Positions 12,993-27,783 of a DNA stretch of 64,000 nucleotides are shown here, one piece after another. The translations under genes were made by a program, and so were the position numbers. Below the pieces are notes generated by a model. It did no database searches. It saw nothing but the letters and a program-made list of their open reading frames with translations, and was not told where the DNA came from. This DNA comes from Pseudanabaena yagii GIHE-NHR1. GTDB lineage: Bacteria; Cyanobacteriota; Cyanobacteriia; Pseudanabaenales; Pseudanabaenaceae. Positions within the stretch are counted from its first letter, which is position 1, and every line of letters starts with the position of its first letter. Where the stretch lies: assembly GCF_012863495.1 (NCBI RefSeq), contig NZ_JAAVJL010000001.1:2538001-2602000 (forward strand), read 5' to 3'.

Positions 12993-13440
12993 TTACGCAA
13001 GAATCATAGGGATAGAAGGATGCTTAAGTTGAGATCTTAAATAATCAGATAAAAGTCCAGATTTAAGCTTGTAGATAGAGTTACTCACTTGAAAAGCTAA
13101 ACGTTTAAGATGAGGCAAGACGAGCATGGCACAGGCGATGTGATTGCGTTGGATTCTAGACTTGCGGCATTGGCAAGACTGAATACCCGTCAATTGTTTG
13201 AGTTCGCGAAGAAATTCCTCAATAATCCACCTAATGGAGTAAATAGCATGTACTTCATAGGTATAGTCTTGAGTTAAGTCGTTAGTCATGACATATTCTG
13301 TCCTGCTGGAAGAAACAGTAACCCAGAATAGTTTCACCTTTTTTTCTTTGGGGAATTTATGGATTTTGATCAATTTTCCCTGCAATAATTCTTTATCAGA
13401 CCAAGTTAGCTGGTCAATCCGTTTATATTTCTCTATTCCA
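12993..13440 (-). pseudogene. IS701/IS4-like transposase, C-terminal fragment
   Basis: About 149 residues, from YKRIDQLTWSDKELLQGK to HPSIPMILA. RWIIEEFLRELKQLTGIQSC is the conserved YREK-like region of DDE transposases of this group. The stop codon lies inside the terminal repeat, as in compact IS elements. The N-terminal half is missing; the frame runs on into antisense of the neighbouring IS630 fragment. Confidence 0.7.
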
Positions 13441-13788
13441 CCACTGGGTTCAATGAAAGGGGAAGATTTTCTCACCTTTATCCAAGATGACCTAGTGCCT
13501 AAATTACGTCCTGAGCATAAGATAATCATGGATAACCTCAACTGCCATAAAGTTGAGAGTGTAGCACAAGCAATCACAGAGAGCGGTGCTAAGATTTTGC
13601 ATTTACCCACCTATTCTCCTGATTTTAATCCAATTGAAATGATGTGGTCGGTTCTCAAATGTTTTTTTGGATTGCTCAGACCTCAGTATCAAAAACTACT
13701 CCAGCATTTAATCAACATTTTCCATTACTTGTTAGAAAAGGATTTCTTCAAAAATTGGTTTACTAAGTGTTCTTACTGTACTACTTAA
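13441..13788 (+). pseudogene. IS630-family transposase, C-terminal fragment
   Basis: Begins abruptly at GSMKGEDFLTFIQDDLVPKL and contains DNLNCHK and the DDE_3 signature LPTYSPDFNPIEMMWSVLK. The first half of the gene is absent. The end of the frame (FKNWFTKCSYCTT) agrees with family members. Confidence 0.8.
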
Positions 13789-13861
13789 TCTCTCAATGAA
13801 CTGTATTCCCCTAAGTACAATTAAGATGTGCCTAATTGAGATGCTCTCGGCGTAAGTCCTA

Positions 13862-14254
13862 TATATTTTCTTAATAGTATTGATATTACAAGAAATTGAT
13901 GATATTATACAAATGCTTAGGGAATAGGAAAAATAAAAAAACTTGCACAAATAATTTCTCTACGAGTGATATATTTAGCTATATCACCGATAGCTTTATT
14001 GTTTGTGATAGATAATAGTGTCGCAAAAAAGTATCCATTTCAACGCAACGCAAAACATTTACATATGTCAATCTATTACACGATGTACAACTGTTTTGGA
14101 GCAATAGCTCTGAAGTGATTTGAGCTACCGAAAATCCAAATTACTCATTAGTGCAGTACGAGAGATCGGGGATTTCAGACTTTTAGTTGCACATATTGCG
14201 TATCCTATACAATGGCTAACCCAGCCTTAGTCTAAAAAACTAATCAATACAACC
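13862..14254. other. Gene-free stretch before the APS kinase gene
   Basis: About 390 bases, AT-rich. I see no convincing reading frame, hairpin or repeat. It presumably holds the promoter of the island's first gene. Confidence 0.5.
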
Positions 14255-14354
14255 ATGAAATATAAAGGCTTTACCTTATGGCTAACAGGACTAAGTGGTT
14301 CGGGTAAAACTACAATTGCCCAAGGAGTAGCAGAACGTTTAAGAACACAGGGTC

Positions 14355-15133
14355 GGCGTTGCACAAATGAAGGATGAATCAAGAAAAGGTGGGAATCGAT
14401 TTGTACTTGAGATAATGAATTAACAGACGAATTGAATACCGCAACATTTGTTCAGATTTTGAATAACATAAAGTTTTGCGATGCAATCTGGCAAGATAAT
14501 GTCTCAGTCTCGTATTTTCACCCTCAACTCTGGTCATGTAGGTTTTGCTAATAATTTGATCTTCCGAGTTGATAAACATTTTGTAGACACAGTAGCCATC
14601 GGTAACCCAGAAATAGCATTGCCAAACCTTAATCAATGTCCATAGAGGTTCAAAGGTTTTGCTACTCCTATCCCCTAATACCCAAGCCAAGATACCTTGG
14701 CTAAAATGATTCACCGCAGTCCATAGCCAAATCAAGTTTTTTTTGACCCAACAAAAGTCTGGAGTTCATCCAGTTCACCAACATCAGGAATAGTCTCAAT
14801 CGGTGGATGTTCTGGTAATTGCTTGGCTGCTTCCTTAACCCAGTTGATGACTGAGTTGTGACTAACATCGGTACATCTCTCAATTTGTCTAAATCCCATG
14901 CCGTTGCAGTACATTTTTAGGCATATTTTTTTGACATCTTGGGAATATCCCAGCACTGAGTAATGATCAATGAACTGACGACCGCAATCAGCGCAAATAT
15001 GATTTTGTTTGTCTCCTCGTTTCCCATTTTTACGAATATGTGTTGAACCACACTTTGGACATTTCATTGTTTTTCATTGCTTAAACTCGTTATCTTTAAT
15101 ATTTACTCATTCATCCCTCATTTATGCAACGCC
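14355..15133 (-). mobile_element. IS1-family insertion sequence, copy 2 (possibly active)
   Basis: Ends read GGCGTTGCACAAATGAAGGA on the left and GGCGTTGCATAAATGAGGGA on the right (inverted), two mismatches in 25 bases. Length 779 bp. Both transposase frames are undamaged and joined by a slippery A-run. It interrupts the APS kinase gene. Confidence 0.92.
14379..15067 (-). CDS. IS1-family transposase made by -1 frameshifting
   Basis: Upstream frame (15067-14732): zinc finger CPKCGSTHIRKNGKRG...ICADC, helix-turn-helix GMGFRQIERCTDVSHNS, ending FVGSKKT. Downstream frame (from about 14745 to 14379): LIWLWTAVNHFSQGILAW, YFWVTDGYCVYKMF, YMTRVEGENTRLRHYLARLH. The two overlap at eight consecutive A residues, giving the slippery heptamer A-AAA-AAA just before the upstream stop; slipping back one base gives the full-length fusion, as known for IS1. 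All key segments are present, so this copy may be mobile. Confidence 0.85.
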
Positions 15134-15670
15134 AGTTTTAGATGGAGATATTGTGAGAACTTATCTTTCTCAAGAATTAGGATTTAGTAAAAAAGATAGA
15201 GATACAAACATTCGTCGAATTGCTTTTGTGACTATGTTACTTCGCCGCCATCAAGTAATTGTAATTGTTTCAGCTATTAGTCCATATCAAAAAACTAGGG
15301 AAGAAGCAAGAAAAATGCTAGAAAATTTTGTAGAGGTTTATGTTAAAGCACCCCTAGATGTTTGTGCAAAAAGAGACACAAAAGGCTTATATGCAAAAGC
15401 TAAAAGCCGAGAAATTAAACAATTTACGGGTATTGATCATCCCTACGAAGAGCCTATCAATCCTGAAATTATTTGTCATACAGATCTTGAGACTACTGAG
15501 GAAAGTATAAATAAGGTTATCTCTTTATTACAACAGAAGCAGTATCTTTCTGACAAAGTGGGATGTTCAGCAAATTAATAACTCGTAATTCTCAATTTTG
15601 GGTATTCTAATTACTCTTACTATTATCAATCTCGCTTAATTATTAACTTTAATTTACAACTAAATTAATC

Positions 15671-16891
15671 ATGTCAACATATTCTAATACCACTACAAAG
15701 CCCGTAATTATTAGTCAGTCTAATAAAAAACTGGAAAAATTACAATTCGTTTTTGTTAGTTCTTGTGCAGCTTGGGGTGGCAGCGAAGATCTATGGACTA
15801 AATCGGCTAGATTTTTGAAAAAGCAAGGTTTTACGGTTCATGCCTTGAAAAATGGGGTTCCCGAACATAAATACGTCCAAGAATTAAAAGATGATGGAAT
15901 CGAAGTAAAGAATATTTGCATTTTAGTTGAATTTCTCCGTAAATTAAGGTTTTTGCTAAATCTGCAATTTGTTTACAAAAGTATAAAACTCCTCAAATTT
16001 TTTAAACGTAAAAACCTACATCAGTTATTAAAAAATAGGCTGGTAGTGATAATTTCTCAAGGAGATAATTTTGATGGTATAGGAATTGCTAAAGTTTTTC
16101 TAGCGCTGAATTTGCCATATATTATTATCAGTCATAAGGCATCTGATTCTATTTGGCCATGTGGTAGGAAACGTCAAATAATGCAAGATGTGTATAGCAA
16201 AGCTAAATTTTGCTTTTTTGTTTCCCAACACAATTTATCCTTAACAGAAGCTCAAATAGGTTTTAGGTTGAATAATGCTGAAGTTGTCAGAAATCCTCAT
16301 CAAGCAATAATTTCAGAAGCACTGCCGTATCCAAAAATAGAAAATGATACTTTTAAAATTGCTTGTGTTGGAAGGTTGTGGATTTTAGATAAAGGACAAG
16401 ATGTTTTATTAAAAGTTTTAGCTCAAGATAAGTGGCAAAATCGTAATTTACATGTCTCTTTTTTTGGAGAGGGAGTTGATCAAGAGGCACTACTGGATAT
16501 GTTAAGACTTTTGAAACTAGAAAATGTTAGTTTTCACGGATTTATCAATAATATTTTAGATGTTTGGCATCATCATCACGCTCTAATTATGCCATCTCGT
16601 GCAGAAGGGTTGCCTATAGCTTTAGTGGAAGTAATGATGTGTGGCAGACCAGCAATTGTTACAGATGTAGGAGGTATGTCAGAAATTATAGAAGATGACA
16701 CTACAGGTTTTATAGCTACCAGTGCTTGTTTTCAAGAAATTGACAAGGTTCTAGAACGAGCTTGGCAACGTCGTTATGAGTGGGAAAATATTGGCAAGCA
16801 AGCATCTATGTCTATTAGAAAGCTAATCCCCCCCAACCCTGAACAAGTATTTGCACATAAGTTAATTCAAATATGCCGAGATTTGAATTAA
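15671..16891 (+). CDS. GT4-family glycosyltransferase (paralog A)
   Basis: 406 residues, GT-B fold. The N-terminal domain starts with FVFVSSCAAWGGSEDLWTKS, the acceptor-side glycine-rich region. The C-terminal domain has CVGRLWILDKGQDVLLKVL and the E-x7-E donor site in MPSRAEGLPIALVEVMMCGRP. It is closely related to the next gene along its whole length, pointing to tandem duplication. It follows the split APS kinase and lies on the same strand as the whole island biosynthetic block. Codon use is AT-rich and there are no HIP1 octamers. Confidence 0.88.
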   Translation: MSTYSNTTTKPVIISQSNKKLEKLQFVFVSSCAAWGGSEDLWTKSARFLKKQGFTVHALKNGVPEHKYVQELKDDGIEVKNICILVEFLRKLRFLLNLQFVYKSIKLLKFFKRKNLHQLLKNRLVVIISQGDNFDGIGIAKVFLALNLPYIIISHKASDSIWPCGRKRQIMQDVYSKAKFCFFVSQHNLSLTEAQIGFRLNNAEVVRNPHQAIISEALPYPKIENDTFKIACVGRLWILDKGQDVLLKVLAQDKWQNRNLHVSFFGEGVDQEALLDMLRLLKLENVSFHGFINNILDVWHHHHALIMPSRAEGLPIALVEVMMCGRPAIVTDVGGMSEIIEDDTTGFIATSACFQEIDKVLERAWQRRYEWENIGKQASMSIRKLIPPNPEQVFAHKLIQICRDLN

Positions 16892-16937: not shown

Positions 16938-18266
16938 ATGCTAACTGAAACTATCTCATCCATTAGTAACCCTTCTCAGTCTCAACAGCTAGGGGGTTTT
17001 GTATTTATTAGTTCTTGTTTTGATGTCTGGGGTGGTAGTGAAGAGCTTTTCGGAGCTACTGCCAAATGTCTCAAGCAACAAGGACATGAGGTGTATGTCT
17101 TCAAATTACAAATCAGTACTCATCCTCGAATTTTAGAATTACAAGCTGCTGGAGTTAAGGTAATCGCCCTTAATTCTTTACGGTTTCTGAAGGTCAAACA
17201 TCTTGCTTTCATATCTATATACTATCTAGTCAGACTACTGAGTTTTTTACCTATACCTACAAGATGTTATTTTATTCACAAACAAAGTTTGATGTTACAA
17301 ACCTTAAAACAAATAGAACCTTCCTTAGTAGTAATTTCCCAAAAAGACAGTGATAATATAGATCCACAACGAAGTTTTCTTTTGCATACCTTGAGGCGGA
17401 TAGAACCTTCCTTAGTAGTGATTTCCCAAGGAGACAATTTTGATGGAGTAAAATATGCAGAAATTTGTCTGGAACTTAATTTGCCATATACAATTATTAG
17501 CCAAAAAGCATCAGACACATTTCTGCCATATGGGAACCTACGTAGAATGATGCAGGATATGTATCGAAAAGCAAAATTTTCCTTTTTTGTTTCTCAGCAT
17601 AATTTATCCTTAACAGAATCCCAAATTGGCTATAGTTTAACTAATGCTGAAGTTATCAGAAATCCACATCGAGCGTTAATTCCAGAAGCGTTACCTTATC
17701 CACTAATAGAAAACGATTGTTTTAAAATAGCTTGTGTAGCGAGGCTATGGATTTTAGATAAAGGACAAGATATTTTATTAAAAGTCTTAGCTCAAGATAA
17801 ATGGCAAAATCGTAATTTACAAATATCCTTTTTTGGGGAGGGGATTGATCGAGATGCTCTAATGGATATTTCCACACTTCTGGGGATTAAAAATGTTCGC
17901 TTCCATGGATTCGTCAATAATATTTTGGATATTTGGCATCATCATCATGCACTGATTATGCCTTCGCGTGCCGAAGGTTTACCCATAGCTTTGGTAGAAG
18001 CAATGATGTGTGGTAGGCTAGGAATTGTGACAGATGTAGGGGGTATCTCTGAGGTTGTAGAAGATAATCTAACTGGCTTTGTGTCTAAGGGAGCATTTTT
18101 TACAGCAGTTGATGAAGCTATGGAACGAGCTTGGCAACGGCGTTATGAGTGGGAATATATTGGTAAGCAATCTTCTATATATATTAGAAAGATTATCCCT
18201 CCCTATCCAGAAAAAATATTTGCCGATAAGTTGATTAAATTATCTAACTCGCAGAGGTGGAAATGA
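16938..18266 (+). CDS. GT4-family glycosyltransferase (paralog B) with an internal duplication
   Basis: 442 residues, paralog of the gene at 15671, sharing the SSC-x4-WGGSE start, RLWILDKGQDILLKVL and MPSRAEGLPIALVEAMMCGR. It is about 36 residues longer, mostly because a segment around IEPSLVVISQ occurs twice in a row (roughly residues 115-140 and 144-170; DNA near 17285-17370 and 17375-17450). Paralog A has only one copy of that segment. The gene starts 47 bases after paralog A, so they are probably cotranscribed. The sugars used are unknown. Confidence 0.87.
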   Translation: MLTETISSISNPSQSQQLGGFVFISSCFDVWGGSEELFGATAKCLKQQGHEVYVFKLQISTHPRILELQAAGVKVIALNSLRFLKVKHLAFISIYYLVRLLSFLPIPTRCYFIHKQSLMLQTLKQIEPSLVVISQKDSDNIDPQRSFLLHTLRRIEPSLVVISQGDNFDGVKYAEICLELNLPYTIISQKASDTFLPYGNLRRMMQDMYRKAKFSFFVSQHNLSLTESQIGYSLTNAEVIRNPHRALIPEALPYPLIENDCFKIACVARLWILDKGQDILLKVLAQDKWQNRNLQISFFGEGIDRDALMDISTLLGIKNVRFHGFVNNILDIWHHHHALIMPSRAEGLPIALVEAMMCGRLGIVTDVGGISEVVEDNLTGFVSKGAFFTAVDEAMERAWQRRYEWEYIGKQSSIYIRKIIPPYPEKIFADKLIKLSNSQRWK

Positions 18267-18327
18267 TAATGGAAAAACTTTTTTTTAAGCATAAAATCGC
18301 TATATTCTAAACTTTTAAGAGCAATTG

Positions 18328-19401
18328 ATGAATAATTTTAGAGTAAACAATCCATTATTCATGCAATTTCAAAAGTTAGTTACTATCATCCGCGCTAATG
18401 AATGGTGGGCATTTAAGGGAGCGCCAGTATTAGCTACAGCATATGCTACAGCTTCAATCTTCAATATTCCACTTTTATCGTTATGGAATTCACTCATATT
18501 GCTTTTGATATCTTTATCAGTAGTGGCAATTTATGCCCATCTGCTCAACGATCTATCAGATCAAGATGAAGATTTAATAGCGGGTAAATCTAATGCTCTA
18601 GTCGGTCGGTCAAAATTATTCAAGGTCATATCTATAGTATCGTGTTTATTTTTTGGGGTCTTGTCAATAAGTTTAGGAGATCTAATTAAATTACCTTTAG
18701 CACTTGCTATTTATATCAGTAACTGGCTTATTTTCTTTACTTATTCAATTCCACCTATACGTTTAAAACAAAGGGATATTTTAGGGGTTTTAGCTGACAC
18801 AATTGGAGCCCATTTGCTGCCAAATTTGTTTGCAGTAGTTTGGATTGCTCATGTGTCTGAACGACAGATCCCATTATTATGGATAACTTTAGTAGGCACT
18901 TGGTCGCTAGCATCAGGTTTGAGAGGAATTTTCTGGCATCAAATAAAAGATATTGAGAATGATCGCTTAGCTGGAGTCAAGACATTTGCTGTTCAAACTT
19001 CCGTCAAAACACTACACTATTTTGGTAAATGGATTGTTTTCCCAATAGAAGTAATTGCTTTTACTGGTATGTTGCTTGTTTCTAATAACTTATTAGCTGG
19101 AGTTTTTCTGGCATTATATTTAGCAACAGTATGGCTAAGATATTATTTTTGGAAAATTTATACCGTAATTGTTTTGCCATTCGCCAATCGCAGTACAATT
19201 CTTACGGAATATTATATCTTGTTTTATCCATTAGCTTTTTTAGTGATATCAGTTTGGCATAATTGGCTTAATGTGATTATTTTAATCGCGCATTCTGTAC
19301 TTTACTTTAATTGTTTATGGATATGGAGTAGAGATTTTTATGTATTATTTCGATGGGAAATCCCAATTTACCTCAACAAGTTGCAAGTTGCAAAAAAGTA
19401 A
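18328..19401 (+). CDS. UbiA-family membrane prenyltransferase
   Basis: 357 residues with about eight to nine membrane helices. The two Asp-rich Mg-diphosphate motifs of the UbiA superfamily are present: LLNDLSDQDEDLIAGKSN near residue 80 and IKDIENDRLAGVKT near residue 214. The family transfers prenyl groups to aromatic acceptors, and includes the phosphoribosyl-decaprenyl-phosphate synthases that make lipid-linked sugars. In this context (glycosyltransferases, ABC exporter) a role in making a lipid carrier or lipid-linked sugar is attractive, but this is inference. The ATG at 18328 is used rather than the adjoining TTG. Confidence 0.82.
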   Translation: MNNFRVNNPLFMQFQKLVTIIRANEWWAFKGAPVLATAYATASIFNIPLLSLWNSLILLLISLSVVAIYAHLLNDLSDQDEDLIAGKSNALVGRSKLFKVISIVSCLFFGVLSISLGDLIKLPLALAIYISNWLIFFTYSIPPIRLKQRDILGVLADTIGAHLLPNLFAVVWIAHVSERQIPLLWITLVGTWSLASGLRGIFWHQIKDIENDRLAGVKTFAVQTSVKTLHYFGKWIVFPIEVIAFTGMLLVSNNLLAGVFLALYLATVWLRYYFWKIYTVIVLPFANRSTILTEYYILFYPLAFLVISVWHNWLNVIILIAHSVLYFNCLWIWSRDFYVLFRWEIPIYLNKLQVAKK

Positions 19402-19495: not shown

Positions 19496-20311
19496 ATGAG
19501 ACAACTGTTTGATAATTCAACATTGCAAAATAGTTTTCTATCTACTGGCTATGTTCAAGTTCCCATACTCTCTGCCAGAGAAGTATCCTACTTGCTCACA
19601 GAAATTGGGAAATTGTGTCCTGATGATAACTTTAACCCACCATCAGGCAAAAAATATCGGACTTCTTATCACTGCTCTTTTCTTGATAAGAACTTGGACT
19701 ACAAACGTCAGGCATTCAGCTTGATCAAAGAGGTCTTTAATCCCTATTTAAAGCGTTATATGCCAGACTTCGAGATTGTCAATGCCAACTTCTTTGTAAA
19801 GCCGCCTCATAGTGGAGCAATGGCAATTCATCAAAACTGGACGGCGTTGGAGCTTGAGGACACCACAGTTACCCTGTGGTGTCCTTTACAAGATGTAGAT
19901 GCTCACAATGGCGGAATTCACGTTGTTCCCGGTAGTCATAAGATTATTCCTCACATTGAAAGTGTTATGTGTCCGCCCTATTTCAAAGACTTTCAAAAAG
20001 CCCTGATGGAAAAATATCTTCAACCAATACCGATGAGGGCGGGTGAAGGGCTGATATTTGACGATGGACTTATCCACTGGACACCAGTGAATAACTCTGA
20101 GGTAGCAAGAATTGCTGTCCAAATTTTTTGTGTGCCAAGTGAATCTACACCCTTTCTATATTTGTTCAATCAGGATGATCCAGAATACTTTGAGAAAATT
20201 GAGGTGGATGAAGAGTTTTTCCTATCTCAGTCAATAACCGAATATGATTGTCCGTCAGCCCCACTGGAAAAGTCTGGGCTTTGTCGAGAACAAGAACCGT
20301 TATATTTCTGA
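19496..20311 (+). CDS. PhyH-family oxygenase-like protein 1, with altered metal motif and shifted C-terminus
   Basis: 271 residues with the phytanoyl-CoA dioxygenase (PhyH) fold, normally Fe(II)/2-oxoglutarate enzymes that hydroxylate small molecules. The core TLWCPLQDVDAHNGGIHVVPGSHKI is clear. The first metal motif, usually H-x-D, reads H112-Q-N114 here; the distal His is probably H194 (GLIHWTP) and the 2-oxoglutarate Arg R205. The last about 15 residues look shifted: another frame downstream (20290-20394) encodes the tail shared by the two following paralogs (SEEEFIELLKK...). It is the first of four PhyH genes in a row. Confidence 0.82.
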   Translation: MRQLFDNSTLQNSFLSTGYVQVPILSAREVSYLLTEIGKLCPDDNFNPPSGKKYRTSYHCSFLDKNLDYKRQAFSLIKEVFNPYLKRYMPDFEIVNANFFVKPPHSGAMAIHQNWTALELEDTTVTLWCPLQDVDAHNGGIHVVPGSHKIIPHIESVMCPPYFKDFQKALMEKYLQPIPMRAGEGLIFDDGLIHWTPVNNSEVARIAVQIFCVPSESTPFLYLFNQDDPEYFEKIEVDEEFFLSQSITEYDCPSAPLEKSGLCREQEPLYF

Positions 20312-20394
20312 AGAAGAATTTATTGAACTCCTCAAAAAAGGAGACGAAATCCGCCAGAAAATCTATTTTCCGAACACAAATCCTAACTCGTGAG
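20290..20394 (+). pseudogene. Detached C-terminal tail of PhyH protein 1
   Basis: In the frame one base on from the upstream gene, the sequence reads NRYISEEEFIELLKKGDEIRQ, then a stop before the next PhyH gene. The same acidic tail closes the next paralog (ISEEEFLELLEKEEG) and the PhyH half of the fusion protein. This suggests a frameshift or internal deletion near the end of gene 1. Confidence 0.65.
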
Positions 20395-20402
20395 TAATTA
20401 CC

Positions 20403-21350
20403 ATGCGAAAAATACTTAATAATGAAACCCAAAATAGCTTGTTGATCAAAAGAGGTTATATTCAACAGCAAATTTTGTGCGAATCCGAAATTCAGTATTT
20501 GTTGGATCAGGTTCGTAAAGTCTGTCCTGAAAGTGATTTTCAGCCCCATAGCGATGCTTCTTCACACCCCTACATTTTTTCCAGTTATACACATACTCAG
20601 AATCTACGCGAATTTGGTTCCAGGATTGTACAGGAAGTTCTATTCCCTCACGTTGAGCAAATTTTTGACAACTACCGTATGATTAGTTGTGGATTGTTTA
20701 TTAAGGCTCCAAAAGGTGGATGGCTTGACATTCATTATCATCACCAGATAATCATTGATGTAGAGAAATATTGGCTGATGGACATCTGGTGTCCTTTAAT
20801 CGACACAGCCGTTGCTAATGGCACGTTCCATGCTGTTCCAGGAAGCCACAAAATCTTTCCAAAAATCATTCATCATACGGACGGTTACGGTCCTTTTTTT
20901 CAAAATTATACCCAAGTTATTAGAGATATATACTCAATTCCGCTACCATCAAAGGCAGGGGAGGCGGTCATTTTTGAAGATAGTATGCTGCATTGGTCGC
21001 CGAATAATATGACAGACTACCCACGATATGTTATTCACTGTACCTGTATCCCAAAAGAAGTTACACCCGTTCATGTGTATTTTGATCCTAAAGCTCCTCA
21101 GCAGTTTGAATTGTATGAGGCAACAGATAAATTTTTAACCAAAACTGTCTTTGGTAAATCATTACCGAGACCCAGCGATCTAAAACTGCTGGCAATTATC
21201 CCTAACAATAATCACGCCTATACTCTGGAGGAGTTTGAGGAGCGAATGCAGAATCCTGATAAAATTCGTCGCGAACTTTATCCCAATACTCCTAATATTT
21301 CTGAGGAGGAATTTCTTGAACTCCTTGAGAAGGAGGAAGGAAGAAATTAG
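20403..21350 (+). CDS. PhyH-family oxygenase-like protein 2, altered metal motif
   Basis: 315 residues, PhyH fold: LMDIWCPLIDTAVANGTFHAVPGSHK and the second-half motif EDSMLHWSPNN with H197 and R208. Where an H-x-D iron site is expected the sequence is H111-Y-H-H114, with no acid at that place. The C-terminal about 65 residues (SDLKLLAIIPNNNHAYTLEE and an acidic tail) are an extension not usual in PhyH proteins. It is nearly identical to the N-terminal half of the next gene, so the two arose by recent tandem duplication. Possible roles: a hydroxylase with unusual metal ligands, or a non-catalytic binding protein. Confidence 0.83.
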   Translation: MRKILNNETQNSLLIKRGYIQQQILCESEIQYLLDQVRKVCPESDFQPHSDASSHPYIFSSYTHTQNLREFGSRIVQEVLFPHVEQIFDNYRMISCGLFIKAPKGGWLDIHYHHQIIIDVEKYWLMDIWCPLIDTAVANGTFHAVPGSHKIFPKIIHHTDGYGPFFQNYTQVIRDIYSIPLPSKAGEAVIFEDSMLHWSPNNMTDYPRYVIHCTCIPKEVTPVHVYFDPKAPQQFELYEATDKFLTKTVFGKSLPRPSDLKLLAIIPNNNHAYTLEEFEERMQNPDKIRRELYPNTPNISEEEFLELLEKEEGRN

Positions 21351-21399
21351 CCCAAAAATCTACTCTCCGAACATAACTTTTAACTAGGAAATAATTACT

Positions 21400-23355
21400 A
21401 TGCGAAACATACTTAATAATGAAACTCAAAATAGCTTGTTAACAAAAAGAGGTTATATTCAGCAGCAAATTTTGTGCGAATCCGAAATTCAGTATTTGTT
21501 GGATCAGGTTCGTAAAGTCTGTCCTGAAACTGATTTTCAACCCCATAGTGATGCTTCCTCACACCCCTACATTTTTTCTAGTTATGCGGCGGTAGATTCT
21601 GAGTATCTGCGTGAATTTGGTTCCAGGATTGTACAGGAAGTTCTATTCCCTCACGTTGAGAAACTATTTGACGGCTACCGCATTATGAGTTGTGGATTAT
21701 TTATTAAGGCTCCAAAAGGTGGATGGATTGACATTCATTATCACCACCAGATAAACATTGATGAAGAGAAATATTGGCTGATGGACATCTGGTGTCCTTT
21801 AACCGACACAGATGTTTCTAATGGCACGTTCCATGCTGTTCCAAAAAGCCACAAAATCTTTCCAAAAATCGTTCATCATACGTGTAGTTACGATCCGTTT
21901 TTTAAAGATTATACCCAAGTTATTCGAGATAAATACTCGATTCCGCTACCATCAAAGGCAGGGGAGGCAGTCATTTTTGAAGATAGTATGCTGCATTGGT
22001 CGCCGAATAATATGACAGACTACCCACGATATGCTATTCACTGTATGTGTATTCCCAAAGAAGTGACACCTGTTCATGTCCATTTTGATCCCAAGGCTCC
22101 CCAGCAGTTTGAATTGTATGAGGCAACAGATAAATTTTTAACCGAAACTGTCTTTGGTAAACCAATACAGAGACCCAGCGATCTAAAACTGCTGGCAATT
22201 ATCCCTAACAATAATCACGCCTATACTCTGGAGGAGTTTGAGGAGCGAATGCAGAATCCTGATAAAATTCGTCGCGAACTTTATCCCGATATTCCTGATA
22301 TTTCTGAGGGAGAGTTTCTAGAACTCCTTGCGAAGGAGAAAGAAATCAGCCATAAAATGTACTCTCCGAACGAAACTTTAAACTTGTCAGCAATGAACCC
22401 AGAGATGAGGGTGAGTTTGAACGATACTCAGCAGAAAGTAATAACATTAGGGATAGCAAAAGTGCCTTCAGTTCTGACTCGCATTGCTTCCACTTGTATG
22501 GATATTCTAGGTATGAAGGCTCGATCAACAGCAAAGGTGCTGTCCAATCCTCAGACATCAAGTGTAATTCGTAAAGCCGGCACTCCGATTAACCGACATA
22601 AGGTTGCTGATGTCACCAATTACTACAACGAGTGGACTCAAAGCTATATCGAGGGCTTTGGAGAGGTTTTTCAGGGTTCAAGACCTGAATCAACGGATGA
22701 ACTACTCGATTATATTATTGGCTCGGCTCAGTTAGAGGATGGTATGACAGTGTTAGATGCTGGGTGCGGTGTCTGCGGACCTGCCATTGGGTTTGCTGAA
22801 CGTCGAAACTTAAGAATTGAAGCCGTCACACTTTCCGAAGTTCAGGTCGCGGAGGGGAAACAACGCATTCAGGATCGAGGTCTGCAAAATCACATTAATG
22901 TGAGGAAAGGGGATTTTCACCAACTTGCAAAAATTTATCCACCTGCCTACTTCGACCGAGTTTTATTTCTGGAATCACTGTGCCACGCTGAGGATTATCG
23001 AGAGGTTCTCCGTCAAGCAAAAAAAGTACTGAAGCCAGGTGGGTGCATTTACATTAAAGACTTTTATGCGTCAGATTACCGTTCCAGTCCCCATCTGCTC
23101 GAAGTGCAGGCAGAAGACCTGCGTGAGTTGAATCGAATTTACTGTCTGATTATGCCAGACCTTACCAGTATGGTAGATCTAATCAGTGAGTTAGGATTTG
23201 GGATCATTTATTTGCGAGAACCCCAGTACACCTATTCTCCAGCAGCTTGGGAAAACTTTATGCGGCATACCAATGTTTTCTGGCTTCCGAAATTAGATAA
23301 CCCAGAGCGGGCAGTCATACGACCGATAGAAATTTTTGCGTACAATTATCATTGA
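21400..23355 (+). CDS. PhyH-methyltransferase fusion protein
   Basis: 651 residues. Residues 1 to about 310 repeat PhyH protein 2 almost exactly, including the unusual H-Y-H-H motif and the acidic tail. A linker of about 70 residues (MNPEMRVSLNDTQQ to INRHK) leads to a class I SAM-dependent methyltransferase at about 390-651: DVTNYYNEWTQSY, motif I VLDAGCGVCGPAIGFA, motif post-I IEAVTLSEVQ, and FLESLCHAEDYREVLRQAKKVLKPGG. The methyltransferase resembles small-molecule C- or O-methyltransferases (Methyltransf_11 type). The fusion suggests that methylation and the PhyH step act on the same substrate. Starts 49 bases after PhyH 2. Confidence 0.87.
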   Translation: MRNILNNETQNSLLTKRGYIQQQILCESEIQYLLDQVRKVCPETDFQPHSDASSHPYIFSSYAAVDSEYLREFGSRIVQEVLFPHVEKLFDGYRIMSCGLFIKAPKGGWIDIHYHHQINIDEEKYWLMDIWCPLTDTDVSNGTFHAVPKSHKIFPKIVHHTCSYDPFFKDYTQVIRDKYSIPLPSKAGEAVIFEDSMLHWSPNNMTDYPRYAIHCMCIPKEVTPVHVHFDPKAPQQFELYEATDKFLTETVFGKPIQRPSDLKLLAIIPNNNHAYTLEEFEERMQNPDKIRRELYPDIPDISEGEFLELLAKEKEISHKMYSPNETLNLSAMNPEMRVSLNDTQQKVITLGIAKVPSVLTRIASTCMDILGMKARSTAKVLSNPQTSSVIRKAGTPINRHKVADVTNYYNEWTQSYIEGFGEVFQGSRPESTDELLDYIIGSAQLEDGMTVLDAGCGVCGPAIGFAERRNLRIEAVTLSEVQVAEGKQRIQDRGLQNHINVRKGDFHQLAKIYPPAYFDRVLFLESLCHAEDYREVLRQAKKVLKPGGCIYIKDFYASDYRSSPHLLEVQAEDLRELNRIYCLIMPDLTSMVDLISELGFGIIYLREPQYTYSPAAWENFMRHTNVFWLPKLDNPERAVIRPIEIFAYNYH

Positions 23356-23510
23356 TGACTAGACACTACTAATTAAGTTGGCATTGAATAATCAAGCCAT
23401 ACAACAAATGTTAAATTAACGAACATCTTATCAAATTAAGATGTTTCACAAATTTGATAAAGCCAAGTATGTAAGTAAGTTTATTATGCCAACTTACTTA
23501 ACTTCAAAAT

Positions 23511-24365
23511 ATGAAAAATATTCGTCACGCTTTCAGAGATTCAGTCCTTCAAGAAGAGTTCTCAAACAATGGCTATGTGGTTGTAAATTTGGCTGAACCT
23601 GGTGAATTAAAAAATTTGGCTGAGGCTTATCAATATCTCTATCCAAACAAAGAGCAAGGCTGTGTATTCTCATGTCATGATACTGATTTTGTGCGTAAGT
23701 TAAAGGCACAAAACCTTCTTCGTCATGTGATTGGGGAAAAGGCACTTAATTTGTTTGATACTTGTAAATTCGTGAGTGGAGCGTTTGTTGCCAAGCACAC
23801 TGGAGAGACCAGTGTTGTTTCTCCCCATACTGACTTGACCTTTGTTGACCACAAGCAGTACTCAGCCATCGCTGTCTGGACTCCTCTTACGGAACTTACT
23901 TCTGAAGCGGGACGGTTACACATATTGGCAGGATCTCATCATTACACACCCCTGTGTGGGTCAAATCTTTATAGTAATTATACAGACATTGCAATCTCAA
24001 GTATGACTGAGATTGACCTAGAAATCGGACAGGCTGTCTGTTATGATATGCGGACGATTCATGCATCCCCTGCCAACAAATCATTGTCTCCCCGAATTGC
24101 TGGAAATTGTGTCCTTATCCCAGAGGAAGCTGATCTATGGCATATAACCATGCGAGATAGAAAAATTCTGATCTATTCCGTTGACAATGATTTCTACATC
24201 AGACGGGGTGGTGATGAGGCAAGCAATCAAGAGCTATTGAGGAATTATCGAGTTATTCATTCTGAACCGTTTGAATCAGATTTACTCGTTGAAAGCAGTC
24301 AATGGAATAATTCTCAACCCTTTGGTTTCTTTCAACGGGTAATCAAGCGGTTAGGCATTGTTTGA
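23511..24365 (+). CDS. PhyH-family dioxygenase 4, canonical metal triad
   Basis: 284 residues. This copy has the normal Fe(II)/2-oxoglutarate set: H106-T-D108 (SPHTDLTFVD), distal H184 (RTIHASPANK) and R195. The middle strand is AVWTPLTELTSEAGRLHILAGSHH. It is more distant from the other three and is the one most likely to be an active hydroxylase. Substrate unknown; candidates are a glycan, a lipid or an amino-acid-like head group made by this island. It ends the plus-strand block of the island, 154 bases after the fusion gene. Confidence 0.83.
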   Translation: MKNIRHAFRDSVLQEEFSNNGYVVVNLAEPGELKNLAEAYQYLYPNKEQGCVFSCHDTDFVRKLKAQNLLRHVIGEKALNLFDTCKFVSGAFVAKHTGETSVVSPHTDLTFVDHKQYSAIAVWTPLTELTSEAGRLHILAGSHHYTPLCGSNLYSNYTDIAISSMTEIDLEIGQAVCYDMRTIHASPANKSLSPRIAGNCVLIPEEADLWHITMRDRKILIYSVDNDFYIRRGGDEASNQELLRNYRVIHSEPFESDLLVESSQWNNSQPFGFFQRVIKRLGIV

Positions 24366-24675: not shown

Positions 24676-25593
24676 TTAAAATCTTTCCGACTTTTTAAAC
24701 ATCTTCTTAAACCAAAAGAATTTTCGCTTTTCCGTTTGTAATTGCTTGTTAAATAATTTTTTACCATACTCATAAATTTCTCGATCACATACTGTCAACT
24801 CATCTATTTGCTTGATGACATCGTCAGGGATTGTTCCAGATTTCCGATAGGTTAAATTCCCTAATGCTAAATTTTCAGGTGATACATTTTCTCGTGGCAG
24901 ATTTTTAGGAGTAGATATTCCTAAAGAATTACAAATCAAGTGAGCCGAATCATTAAATTGTTCCATTATCCCCACAACTTCCATTGCGTCGAGTCTTTGT
25001 TTAGCCTTATTGAAGATTTCATTTATATCTAATAGTCCAGATGATAATTGTTGAGCAATAATATTCTCAATGAAGATTTCTTTACTCTTATCAAGTGTAT
25101 CAAGTGAGCATTGCGAAACACCTAAATACTCATTCAAATCTATATCGCATCCCAGATAACAACTTTGCTGTTCTTTCATACTTGGCATAAGATTAAGCAT
25201 CTCTCTAATATTAGTACACTTCAATAGTTCGCTGATATCACTCTTGAGCTTGAGATCTTCAACTTCATCCAACGCTAATGGATTAGAAGCAAACTTTTTT
25301 ACCACAATCCTTTTTATAAAAAGGCAATTTGAAACTGTTCTCTCAAAAGGATCTCGCAACATAGTAATAGAGGAAATTTCTTTATCTAGCAGACTAAACA
25401 GACCTGTTCCCCAATGACCTGCAAAGCATTTGAATTGACTAATTTCCTCTCTGCTCATTTGTAACAGTTGTGATAGCGAACAATTGAGTTGTGAGCCTTG
25501 AGGGTAGGAGCAAAGAATTAATTGACCTAAGGAAGAACCAGCAGTTTTGGGAATATGCAGAAAATAAATCGGAGGCAGCTTGTGTTTCATCAT
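24676..25593 (-). CDS. Sulfotransferase family protein
   Basis: 305 residues of the Sulfotransfer_2 type. The 5'-phosphosulfate loop is IYFLHIPKTAGSSLGQLI at the N-terminus and the 3'-phosphate loop is SITMLRDPFERTVSNCLF near residue 75. These enzymes move sulfate from PAPS to hydroxyls of glycans or lipids. The gene follows the ABC exporter genes in the order wzm-wzt-sulfotransferase with a 31-base gap, so it probably belongs to their operon. The PAPS-forming APS kinase in the same island is broken, so activity would depend on another PAPS source. Confidence 0.85.
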   Translation of the reverse strand: MMKHKLPPIYFLHIPKTAGSSLGQLILCSYPQGSQLNCSLSQLLQMSREEISQFKCFAGHWGTGLFSLLDKEISSITMLRDPFERTVSNCLFIKRIVVKKFASNPLALDEVEDLKLKSDISELLKCTNIREMLNLMPSMKEQQSCYLGCDIDLNEYLGVSQCSLDTLDKSKEIFIENIIAQQLSSGLLDINEIFNKAKQRLDAMEVVGIMEQFNDSAHLICNSLGISTPKNLPRENVSPENLALGNLTYRKSGTIPDDVIKQIDELTVCDREIYEYGKKLFNKQLQTEKRKFFWFKKMFKKSERF

Positions 25594-25624: not shown

Positions 25625-26890
25625 CTATTCCCATTGTACTGGAATATGAAATAGGCATTTAGAACTTCGAGAAAAATTCAAACTAGGGTCTGCCAAACCT
25701 TTAACCTCAAAGCTGTAAAGTTGATCCCTGATCCCTTTTCTTCCTAAAATGTCATGGGTGTCATAGTCCACAACATATACTTCTAACTGATATTTTCCTG
25801 GGAGGAGAGGCAATTGATTAATTGTGCATCTAAATTCATTTTGTCCTGCTTTTATTTGATAATGCTGATCTCCATAAATCCCAGTCATATTTGCCATCAG
25901 AAAAAGTTCATCTTTTCTTAAAGCAAAACCAATAAGAATTGGGTATTTATCAAGTTGTGAATGACAAGTTAATTGAATTTGAACTTGACTACCTGGAAAA
26001 ATTTCTTTCCCATCGGTGGCAACTACCTCCACTTGTTCAATTTTAACTGTACCAAATTTTTCTCCTGTTATTAAATCTTCATCTTTATTGGCTTGTTGGG
26101 ATAGATTATTGTCTATTGACTGGGAATAACTCTGTTCTATCAATTCATTGTAAGTGTGAATTATCGTATCTGGTTCGCCTGTGTCATATACTTGTCCCTG
26201 ATTCAAAAGAATGACACGGTGACAAAGTGATTTAATTTGAGGTATTTGATGAGAAACCAGTAGTATAGCTCCACCCTTTTCAACATAGTCTCTCAGATAA
26301 ATTTGAAACTTCTGCTGAAAGCGAATATCTCCTCCCCCTAAAGCTTCATCTATGATAAAAATATCTGGATGCAGTTGCGTATAAATAGAAAATGCTAACC
26401 GCAAGCGCATCCCTGTACTGTATGTACCCACAGGTGCGTCAATAAAGCTTTCAATACCTGAATAATCAATAATATTATGAATATTTTTCTTAATTTGCTG
26501 TTCATTAACTCCATACATTGATAATTTGTTGTAGATGTTTTCTCTTCCTGTTTGCACAGCATTTAATCCAGATTGATTGTCTATCATTACCACTTGATTG
26601 GTATTCCATCTCACCTCACCCAAAGTAGGGCGCAAAATTCCCGTAATTAAGTTAATTAATGTACTTTTCCCTGCCCCATTATGTCCAACTAATCCCAGTA
26701 CTTCCCCAGCTTTTAGTTGTAGATTGACATCGTAAAGAGACCAAAATTCCCCCTGGCGAAGATAATTTTCTCCTTCTGCTCTGCGACGAAACTCCCAAAA
26801 AATATCCTGAATTGTATAACGTAATGCTAACTTGGGATCACTGCAAAATCGTTTTGATAAATGATTTACTTCTAATAGTATTTTTGCCAT
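25625..26890 (-). CDS. wzt: ABC exporter ATPase, Wzt type with C-terminal domain
   Basis: 421 residues. The ATPase domain has Walker A GHNGAGKST (69-77), signature YSTGMRLRLAFS, Walker B IFIIDEALGGGD and the switch His in LVSHQ. Residues from about 270 form a separate beta-rich domain (EVVATDGKEIFPGSQVQIQLTC) like the Wzt C-terminal domain, which in O-antigen exporters binds the modified end of the glycan. The pair with the upstream permease exports lipid-linked polysaccharides across the inner membrane. The domain suggests that export here waits for an end modification such as methylation or sulfation (inference). Confidence 0.9.
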   Translation of the reverse strand: MAKILLEVNHLSKRFCSDPKLALRYTIQDIFWEFRRRAEGENYLRQGEFWSLYDVNLQLKAGEVLGLVGHNGAGKSTLINLITGILRPTLGEVRWNTNQVVMIDNQSGLNAVQTGRENIYNKLSMYGVNEQQIKKNIHNIIDYSGIESFIDAPVGTYSTGMRLRLAFSIYTQLHPDIFIIDEALGGGDIRFQQKFQIYLRDYVEKGGAILLVSHQIPQIKSLCHRVILLNQGQVYDTGEPDTIIHTYNELIEQSYSQSIDNNLSQQANKDEDLITGEKFGTVKIEQVEVVATDGKEIFPGSQVQIQLTCHSQLDKYPILIGFALRKDELFLMANMTGIYGDQHYQIKAGQNEFRCTINQLPLLPGKYQLEVYVVDYDTHDILGRKGIRDQLYSFEVKGLADPSLNFSRSSKCLFHIPVQWE

Positions 26891-26892
26891 GA

Positions 26893-27783
26893 TTAAGCTA
26901 GAGATCTTTCAATTATATGAGGTAAACACAGGCGGCAAAACAACCAACTTCCTAACATCAATAATATTGTTAGAGGCATTAATAGAAATAAAGCCAAAGG
27001 ATTAATTGAACCAACACCATAAGTTAAAAATCTTACAGCTTCAAATATGTAAGTTAAAGGATTACATATTTGCACGAAGTAAAGCCAAGTTCCTGGTTGG
27101 ATGACGACAAAGACAGGAGTAACGAGAAATAGAACCCAAGGAAAAACCTGTATCACATTTTCTAAATCTTTAGTTAAAGAATTACAAGGAGCTAATAATA
27201 AACCCAAACCAGAACCTAATCCAATAATTAATATAATACCTAATAGCGCTAGAATAAATGTTATACTAGGAGTAATATTAAAAACTAACAAAATAGCTAC
27301 TAACACTGGAAATCGCATCAAAAAGCTAAAAGTAGACTCTGCTAAACCAGCTATCATTATCCCTTCTATAGGGATTTTTTGTCGGGCTAATAAGTGAATG
27401 TATCGCGTAAGAGAACTACACTGAATATTCAATGCTTCCAGAAAGGTCTGTGCCATAACTACTCCAAAGACACCATAAACTTGAGGTGGAACTTGCCCAC
27501 CAATTAAAATCGGAATGCGATCTCGCTGTCCCAATGTCAGTAATATAGCGACTAAAGCTGAAGGCACAAAAGCCCAAAATAAGCCAAGAGATGAATAACG
27601 ATAACGTTGGGCTATATTTTGTAAAAACAGACGCTTGGCAAAGCCAGATGAGGCTTGCAAATCCAGCCATGCACCTGCCAGAAATGTTCTAACTGAAAAT
27701 AACTGACTTCTAGCGCTATTAATCTTGACAGGGTAAGATAAATCGCTACTACTTTGTTGAGACTGAGGATAAAGTAAATTCAT
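26893..27783 (-). CDS. wzm: ABC exporter permease, Wzm type
   Basis: 296 residues with six predicted membrane helices (ABC2_membrane family). Conserved elements include LFLQNIAQRYRYSSLGLFWAFVPSA, the usual Wzm/TagG start, and the amphipathic GLLLAPCNSLTKDLENVIQVFPW region. Two bases separate it from the ATPase gene, so the two subunits are made together. It would form the membrane channel for a lipid-linked glycan. It is transcribed away from the remnant IS at the right edge of the island. Confidence 0.88.
   Translation of the reverse strand: MNLLYPQSQQSSSDLSYPVKINSARSQLFSVRTFLAGAWLDLQASSGFAKRLFLQNIAQRYRYSSLGLFWAFVPSALVAILLTLGQRDRIPILIGGQVPPQVYGVFGVVMAQTFLEALNIQCSSLTRYIHLLARQKIPIEGIMIAGLAESTFSFLMRFPVLVAILLVFNITPSITFILALLGIILIIGLGSGLGLLLAPCNSLTKDLENVIQVFPWVLFLVTPVFVVIQPGTWLYFVQICNPLTYIFEAVRFLTYGVGSINPLALFLLMPLTILLMLGSWLFCRLCLPHIIERSLA

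Follow-up and report, generated by a model that had tools for sequence, protein, structure and literature searches.

PhyH-family proteins with asparagine or histidine in place of the metal-binding acid: a conserved candidate branch in a Pseudanabaena yagii gene cluster

Four PhyH genes in a row

The 64,000-nucleotide stretch of Pseudanabaena yagii GIHE-NHR1 analyzed here (contig NZ_JAAVJL010000001.1, positions 2,538,001 to 2,602,000; hereafter the window, whose own numbering is used) carries four open reading frames (ORFs) of the PhyH family (PF05721) in a row. The original prediction stated that three of them lack the acid of the Fe(II)-binding HxD...H motif, and both the sequences and the alignment confirm this: PhyH1 exhibits H-Q-N at this place, PhyH2 and a PhyH-methyltransferase fusion exhibit H-Y-H, and PhyH4 has H-T-D. 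As outlined in the following list, all four score above the PF05721 gathering cut-off of 22 bits, and at E ≤ 0.001 they are the only matches in the whole genome (5.57 Mb).

19496..20311, +, PhyH1, acid-less, HxN type (PF05721 65.3 bits; AlphaFold2 (AF2) model; alignment); key residues H112-Q-N114, H194-W-T196, R205, Q209, N98, K102
19829..19837, +, codons of H112-Q113-N114, the altered HxD motif of PhyH1; N aligned with the Asp of SnoK, PHYHD1 and PAHX
20120..20122, +, codon of Q209 of PhyH1, a second-shell position; Gln in 15/15 HxN rows
20403..21350, +, PhyH2, acid-less, HxH type (PF05721 36.1 bits; AF2 model); key residues H111-Y-H113 (then H114), H197-W-S199, R208, H212
20733..20741, +, codons of H111-Y112-H113, the altered HxD motif of PhyH2
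21400..23355, +, PhyH3-MT, an acid-less HxH PhyH domain fused to an S-adenosylmethionine (SAM) methyltransferase domain (PF05721 41.7 bits, Methyltransf_11 56.8 bits)
21736..21744, +, codons of H113-Y114-H115 (then H116), the altered HxD motif of the fusion
23511..24365, +, PhyH4, acid-bearing, H106-T-D108 (PF05721 59.1 bits)

The distal His, the His-X-Ser/Thr motif and the Arg were found in each of the four proteins. In alignments with PDB entries the Asn of PhyH1 stands opposite the Asp of SnoK, PHYHD1 and PAHX, which is the established iron-binding residue of the family. An Asp or Glu in the 2-His-1-carboxylate pattern (HxD/E...H) is present in PhyH4 and absent from PhyH1, PhyH2 and the fusion; orthologs of PhyH4 in the loci L029, L047 and L048 retain HTD or HID. 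The PhyH domain of the fusion is 87% identical to PhyH2. Two HxH copies in L029 fall into separate subclades, unlike the window copies, and the window pair suggests gene conversion or a recent duplication in the window. At the DNA level (20343-22330), the window pair (PhyH2 and the fusion's PhyH part) shares ~90% identity over nearly the whole gene.

The AF2 models of PhyH1 (predicted local distance difference test, pLDDT, 89.3; predicted template modeling score, pTM, 0.89) and PhyH2 (pLDDT 89.9, pTM 0.90) both adopt the double-stranded beta-helix of the PhyH type. The PhyH1 model matched SnoN (Z 19.6, 208 aligned, 3.6 Å) and the PhyH2 model SnoK (Z 17.9, 215 aligned, 3.5 Å), and EvdO2, AviO1, EvdMO1, TlxI-J and SyrB2 were likewise among the fold matches. 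A common fold alone is no proof of function.

Conservation of the metal site and of the 2-oxoglutarate anchors

Over 56 aligned domains, the acid column holds D 30 times, N 15 times and H 11 times and nothing else; in a 54-domain alignment the corresponding counts are 30, 14 and 10. L030, L032 and L034 (overlap or cut) are not part of the domain set. Stretches were required to have at least 180 aligned residues and an E-value no higher than 1e-8, which excluded, among others, broken or truncated PhyH fragments in L036, L046 and L047. L109 duplicates L104 and was omitted from the 56 rows, and L110 is the same place as L107. Non-redundant counts refer to 90% identity, and the non-redundant group table omits L051 and one L048 protein (L048_9992, the apparent revertant described below).

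K102, His112, His194 and Arg205 (PhyH1 numbering, used for all columns) are invariant in 54/54 domains, and 18/18 non-redundant acid-less domains have a Ser or Thr two positions past the distal His. In PhyH-like enzymes the His-X-Ser/Thr motif and the Arg serve the 5-carboxylate of 2-oxoglutarate (2OG), the Ser/Thr directly or indirectly (PMC2871039). With both His and the Arg invariant and the Ser/Thr always present, the alignment indicates that the acid-less proteins retain two putative metal ligands as well as the 2OG anchors. HQN persists down to 24% pairwise identity, where the invariant columns number 24/270. The conservation of N and H at the acid place among homologs, which the original prediction had left to an alignment, is thereby established. 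Its H-Y-H-H reading stood in part: H-Y-H is kept in the relatives (H-H-H once), whereas the fourth His is not conserved, the residue after HxH varying among the 9 non-redundant HxH domains (P 6, H 2, L 1).

A substitute acid near the motif was considered and rejected. The original prediction had named the following VEKYW or LELED segment as a place from which a different Asp or Glu might reach the metal; at the sequence level, no invariant D/E column follows the HxN or HxH motif in either group. The nearest substitute, column 126 (the Asp of 'DIW'), is D in 8/9 HxH domains, N in the ninth and N in a later-found HHH member. The D122 column of PhyH1 is D in 6/9 HxN domains and otherwise I, V or H, and column 119 varies between D, E and A in HxN and between D, N, E and V in HxH. 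Column 110, directly before the first His, has D in 8/9 HxH domains and G in the other. Column 189 (IF[DE]D) is acidic throughout (D in 9/9 HxN; E in 8 and D in 1 HxH), but this acid is widespread in HxD proteins too (D in 15/25), so it does not count as a substitute.

The HxH group has three His at the places in the alignment where a three-histidine metal site would have them. Separately, columns 97, 210 and 212 hold an invariant Cys in the 9 non-redundant HxH domains, on strands that also carry 2OG-site residues.

Second-shell positions

Second-shell residues were compared in 9 HxN, 9 HxH and 25 HxD non-redundant domains and subsequently in all 56 rows. Two positions follow the type of the acid column. 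Position 209 (Arg205+4) is Q in 15/15 HxN rows and H in 11/11 HxH rows, and in the 30 HxD rows it is spread over A8, G5, N5, F2, H2, I2, S2, Q1, T1, V1 and Y1. Position 98 (Lys102-4) is N in 15/15 HxN and G in 11/11 HxH rows (HxD: S11, N7, A4, V3, D2, T2, G1). The lone Q209 among the HxD rows fits the HHD protein of Cyanobium (L048). Among background loci outside the acid-less clade, Q209 occurs in 0/25 readable ones and H209 in one.

At position 195, W is found in 17/18 acid-less non-redundant domains and Y in one, whereas the HxD domains (25) show G, A, F, S or R; of the background HxD proteins outside the clade, one (L052) has W195. The scheme also holds for two members found later, one being HHH with G98, W195 and H209 and the other HQN with N98, Y195 and Q209.

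In the PhyH1 model, residues 92-102 and 205-214 form core strands that hold positions 98 and 209. Because each lies four residues from a 2OG-site residue on its strand, both should face the pocket by strand alternation. An EctD paper lent no support to a pocket role for the Arg+4 position.

Phylogeny and selection

Trees were calculated with the acid column removed, and later with five trait columns removed and new members added (L051 omitted throughout); the acid-less rows grouped together in both cases. With the five columns removed, 26 rows (14 N, 11 H, 1 D) form one clade with support 99/98, within which the HxH rows are a clade of 100/99. The single D row, the Cyanobium HHD protein (L048:9992-10873), is nested among the HxN rows (96/84 for the smallest set) and retains Q209 and W195; it is an apparent natural Asn-to-Asp revertant. 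A long-branch HQN protein (L044, 17249-18292) falls outside the clade, but a constraint that joins it was not rejected (approximately unbiased test, p-AU 0.30), so that it may be either a sister of the clade or a second origin. The tree needs 4 acid changes, compared with a mean of 22.9 in shuffles. The simplest reading of this topology would be a change from D to N, then from N to H, with one return to D.

The ratio of nonsynonymous to synonymous substitution rates (dN/dS) of the HQN gene was 0.042-0.156 (10 pairs, five closely related actinobacterial-type loci). For the acid-bearing neighbors values of 0.075-0.120 (HVD) and 0.063-0.087 (HQD) were obtained, with 6 pairs from four loci each. 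The HQN gene and its acid-bearing neighbors are under equally strong selection. For HxH genes dN/dS was 0.146 (L046/L047) and 0.150 (L048/L049, whole fusion). Decay or artefact was rejected as an origin of the altered motifs because of the conservation across distant bacteria, the low dN/dS and a second cluster of this kind in genome G051. The acid swap is an old trait that has been conserved.

Distribution of the acid-less proteins

At E ≤ 1e-10, 386 sampled genomes of the phylum gave relatives of PhyH1 in 5 and of PhyH2 in 4, the own genome included. G338 and G116 carry HQD, and the match in G213 was too short for the motif to be read. In G051 the PhyH set is HQN, HYH, HYH (methyltransferase-fused) and HTD as in the window, with a partly different gene order, a P after HYH where the window has the fourth H, and UbiA, glycosyltransferase and exporter genes in the same cluster. 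Since this cluster keeps the four motifs, the swap in the window is not a matter of chance.

Among 84,980 species genomes scanned, 17 loci were found, and 15 of them contain an acid-less gene (L035-L049). The record titles of the carriers name a Rhodanobacteraceae metagenome-assembled genome (MAG), a Chthonomonas MAG, a Bacteroidetes MAG, Actinobacteria, Cyanobium and others. For L035, L039 and L040 the titles look doubtful: a 'Kuenenia' genome measures 8.2 Mb, and genes on 'Bifidobacterium breve' contigs are almost the same as in Actinobacteria IMCC26207. Searching the phyla to which the L037 and L036 genomes belong brought up the two later-found members.

Within the window's own order the genes are present at E ≤ 1e-25 in 1/38 genomes, namely the own one, and this isolated occurrence suggests that the cluster was gained horizontally. 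With the centre genomes included, the count was 1/296 in the phylum of G386 at E ≤ 1e-25; at E ≤ 1e-40 it was 1/24 in the family of G391, 2/151 each in the family of G389 and the phylum of G392, 2/267 in the phylum of G387 and 1/267 in that of G388. The acid-less family is sporadic in the sampled genomes. A viral or plasmid origin was rejected: 18 candidate viral stretches contained 0 relatives, and plasmids gave distant matches only, at 25-32% identity (3 records for PhyH2, 7 for PhyH1).

For comparison, 30 background loci were taken from the 91 PF05721 matches in 9 carrier genomes, of which 29 were readable (all but L072). Outside the clade 26/26 carry Asp; the other three belong to the clade, two with HQN and one being the HHD revertant. 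In this small sample of top matches acid loss would therefore seem uncommon among the PhyH proteins of carrier genomes. Searches of open-licence papers, some of them made with other aims, listed no account of an HxN or HxH PhyH group, subscription papers being mostly outside their coverage.

Gene neighborhood

The PhyH genes are flanked by genes for prenyl and sugar transfer, sulfation and export:

15009..15578, +, APS kinase (APS, adenosine 5'-phosphosulfate), N-terminal part apparently lost (PF01583 profile positions 31-151 of 152 only)
15671..16891, +, glycosyltransferase group 1 (PF13692 92.2 bits)
16938..18266, +, glycosyltransferase (profile family shared with 15671-16891, L038, L048 and L109)
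18325..19401, +, UbiA-family prenyltransferase (PF01040 50.5 bits; homologs in 7/19 acid-less loci)
24676..25593, -, sulfotransferase (PF03567 28.3 bits)
25625..26890, -, Wzt-like ATP-binding cassette (ABC) ATPase with Wzt_C (PF00005 83.6 bits, PF14524 33.4 bits)
26893..27783, -, Wzm-like ABC-2 permease (PF01061 30.7 bits)

Neighbors were counted in 19 loci with an acid-less gene (the window, L029, L035-L049, L109 and L110); L111-L113 entered the neighbor scan only and are outside the tree. The profiles for UbiA, Wzm, Wzt, glycosyltransferases, sulfotransferase and methyltransferase were built partly from these loci, which hence match by construction; that for the glycosyltransferases derives from 16938-18266, 15671-16891, L038 and L048. 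Besides the UbiA homologs, methyltransferase matches were found in 10/19 loci (L109 weak, 2.6e-06) and Wzm plus Wzt in 8/19 (in L029 partly on the adjoining stretch L028). An acid-bearing PhyH is missing from five loci; two of these are short contigs (L039, L046), two include a single flank (L045, L049) and L109 includes both flanks. In the 20 kb of L109 with both flanks, a profile search detected no other PhyH beside the HHH gene.

L038 has the same genes together with genes that by eye resemble an APS kinase and other sulfate-activation genes, and with a sulfotransferase. In the window, another gene may be needed to supply the cluster with activated sulfate. These neighbors suggest that the cluster's product is prenyl- or sugar-based, carries sulfate and methyl groups and would be exported; a sulfated glycan or glycolipid is the best reading of the putative exported substrate.

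Several further observations concern the surroundings. Transposase- or insertion-sequence-like remnants (12993-15578, by eye) adjoin the cluster and the APS kinase ORF. PhyH-rich clusters occur in L111/L112 (G391:C145, 9 matches in ~26 kb, with Wzm and Wzt) and L113 (G386:C4, 7 in ~17 kb). L031:5475-11201 encodes a giant fusion of 1908 aa with two HQD PhyH domains and glycosyltransferase-like parts (by eye), with UbiA nearby, and L033:584-5116 a 1510-aa fusion of the order PhyH-UbiA-cyclase-like-PhyH; judged from their sequences, these fusions point to a UbiA-PhyH association also with normal acids. Squalene-cyclase-type repeats (by eye) lie beside or fused to PhyH in L033, L042:18604-20595, L049:6809-7948, L050:8894-9967 and L109:16591-17625; Pfam gave no match for the squalene-cyclase-like part of the L042 protein.

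Proposed role and rival explanations

On balance we lean towards PhyH1, PhyH2 and the PhyH domain of the fusion being catalytically active tailoring enzymes that depend on a metal and 2OG and whose third metal ligand is neutral. They would represent a conserved branch of the PhyH fold in which the metal site has been rebuilt without a carboxylate, and because the relatives keep the swap together with matching nearby changes, the data suggest a rebuilt rather than a broken site. Both types would bind Fe(II) or a similar metal together with 2OG. The third ligand would be the Asn side chain in PhyH1 (2-His-1-Asn) and a third His in PhyH2 and the fusion, where H209 might act as a fourth ligand or as a pocket acid/base. 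Jointly with the acid-bearing PhyH4, the methyltransferase and the sulfotransferase, these enzymes would carry out oxidative tailoring of a prenyl- or sugar-based surface molecule that is made by UbiA and the glycosyltransferases and exported via Wzm/Wzt. As methyltransferase and oxygenase are fused in PhyH3-MT, the arrangement suggests that one oxidizes the position that the other methylates. That an acid-less 2OG site can hydroxylate is documented for AspH (PMC13168262). Among the options listed in the original prediction, that of new-type oxygenases is the best supported in terms of sequence, with N/H conserved, the 2OG anchors kept and the second-shell residues fixed.

More tentatively, and with more doubt than confidence, we propose that one family harbors two acid-free, 2OG-using iron sites, 2-His-1-Asn (N98/Q209) and 3- or 4-His (G98/H209), which would operate beside a normal 2-His-1-Asp enzyme in one pathway, with one reversion to Asp and an iron-oxo species tuned beyond simple hydroxylation. 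A natural family in which the acid is lost, the remaining metal and 2OG residues are kept, two matching second-shell residues are fixed and an apparent Asn-to-Asp revertant occurs would show how an acid-less metal site can be rebuilt, and it supplies enzyme pairs ready for testing this. For annotators the finding is a caution, as an acid-less PhyH motif alone does not equal a dead enzyme or a halogenase.

A number of points weigh against active acid-less enzymes with a rebuilt site. In prolyl 4-hydroxylase the variants D414H, D414A and D414G are inactive and only Glu can replace Asp (PMC2767507). The Cyanobium member went back to Asp with Q209 and W195 kept, so that the Asn is not irreplaceable. 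Asn98 (7/30) and His209 (2/30) also occur in HxD rows; the covariation comprises few events, and with about 4 changes on the tree it is partly accounted for by common descent. A profile of acid-less proteins was used to find the two later members, which are therefore no blind sample. Between the two window HxH copies dN/dS is 0.314, which indicates weaker constraint, and among the background loci the Lys is replaced by Ile in two (L057, L064) and the Arg by Lys in two (L056, L071). Finally, the models behind the active-site claim carry no metal, and the inward orientation of positions 98 and 209 is derived from strand alternation.

A serious though unlikely competitor is that the acid-less proteins are non-catalytic partners which pair with an acid-bearing PhyH and shape or stabilize its site, as TlxI does for TlxJ. 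An acid-bearing PhyH is indeed found in 14/19 acid-less loci, as such pairing predicts and as a further point against independent catalysis; moreover, TlxI-J chains are among the fold matches and provide a precedent (PMC11880133). In L035 (10001-11866) HQN and HQD PhyH domains are even fused in one protein of 621 aa. However, TlxI is devoid of the 2OG Arg (PMC11880133), whereas here Arg, Lys, both His and Ser/Thr are retained, and a pure scaffold is not expected to fix Q209 or H209 in its core. Identities were compared for 8 HQN and 12 acid-bearing proteins chosen by hand from the set. The HQN proteins stay 35-66% identical to PhyH1, but nine acid-bearing neighbors (L035-L038, L042, L044, L107) are only 21-29% identical to PhyH4; three other acid-bearing proteins show 59-64%. 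No PhyH4 ortholog was found in the L035 genome, which may be incomplete (best 28%), and by the profile search the HHH gene of L109 stands alone in 20 kb. As for this option in the original prediction, an obligate partnership with PhyH4 is disfavored by these comparisons, while partnership in a general sense keeps some probability.

The remaining alternatives concern the occupant of the acid's place. An AspH-like site, in which water replaces the acid, the Asn or His of the second shell holds this water and the enzyme hydroxylates, appears improbable to us. An Asn could hydrogen-bond such a water, but His is large and a good ligand, which makes water less likely in the HxH group, and AspH belongs to a family other than PhyH. 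In human AspH itself, a tightly held water occupies the place of the Asp beside two His (PMC13168262). Halogenase-like chemistry, with an anion such as chloride in place of the acid and its transfer to the substrate, would share the absence of the acid and the SyrB2 fold match. We regard it as very improbable for these proteins, in which the invariant Asn or His is bulky compared with the room needed for a halide; halogenases also have Gly at the acid place. Ala at this place (PMC2767507) and the chloride site there (PMC4019311) are described for halogenases. The chlorinating-enzyme model TIGR01762, whose cut-off is 226.3 bits, scored no higher than 21.7, and the halogenation-like option of the original prediction is not supported. 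Metal chemistry without 2OG at a 3-His site (isomerase, lyase or thiol-type dioxygenase), with a substrate carboxylate in the 2OG pocket, is equally hard to credit. Cysteine dioxygenase (CDO) is a 3-His iron enzyme that works without 2OG (PMC2767507) and Dke1 acts on beta-diketones (PMC4019311), and the HxH group fixes the three Cys and H209 on the 2OG-site strands; yet the 2OG-carboxylate Arg and the His-X-Ser/Thr are unchanged in all 18 non-redundant acid-less domains.

Comparison with known systems

The PhyH oxygenases SnoK, SnoN, PHYHD1, PAHX, EctD and MysH have the fold, both His, the 2OG Arg and the His-X-Ser/Thr in common with the window proteins, which differ from them by Asn or His for the metal acid and by the fixed Q209 or H209. 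Orthosomycin-type oxygenases (EvdO2, AviO1, HygX) exhibit the same fold; several such oxygenases act on oligosaccharides, and the orthosomycin enzymes typically keep the HxD triad. EvdMO1 (6ec3, deposited as a methyltransferase-domain protein; match to PhyH1 with Z 17.8, 189 aligned, 3.3 Å) joins a methyltransferase and an oxygenase. The fusion at 21400-23355 likewise unites a SAM methyltransferase and a PhyH oxygenase but in reverse order, the oxygenase coming before the methyltransferase.

Systems with altered active sites resemble the window proteins in part. The TlxI-J heterodimer has the same fold and a second, altered oxygenase-type subunit. TlxI, which pairs with TlxJ in this fungal heterodimer, lost the 2OG Arg and LoopA (PMC11880133), whereas the window proteins keep the Arg, as do all 54 domains, and change the acid instead. 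The halogenases SyrB2 and CytC3 kept two His and lost the acid, as here; they carry a small residue at its place, of which the 56 rows hold none, and TIGR01762 stays far below its cut-off. Human AspH is a natural acid-less hydroxylating 2OG oxygenase with water at the acid's place, unlike the Asn or His of the window proteins. Methylphosphonate synthase, of another family and without 2OG, has a 2-His-1-Gln iron site and thus an amide as third ligand. The three-histidine dioxygenases CDO and Dke1 possibly share the 3-His set with the HxH group, although they belong to other families and CDO works without 2OG.

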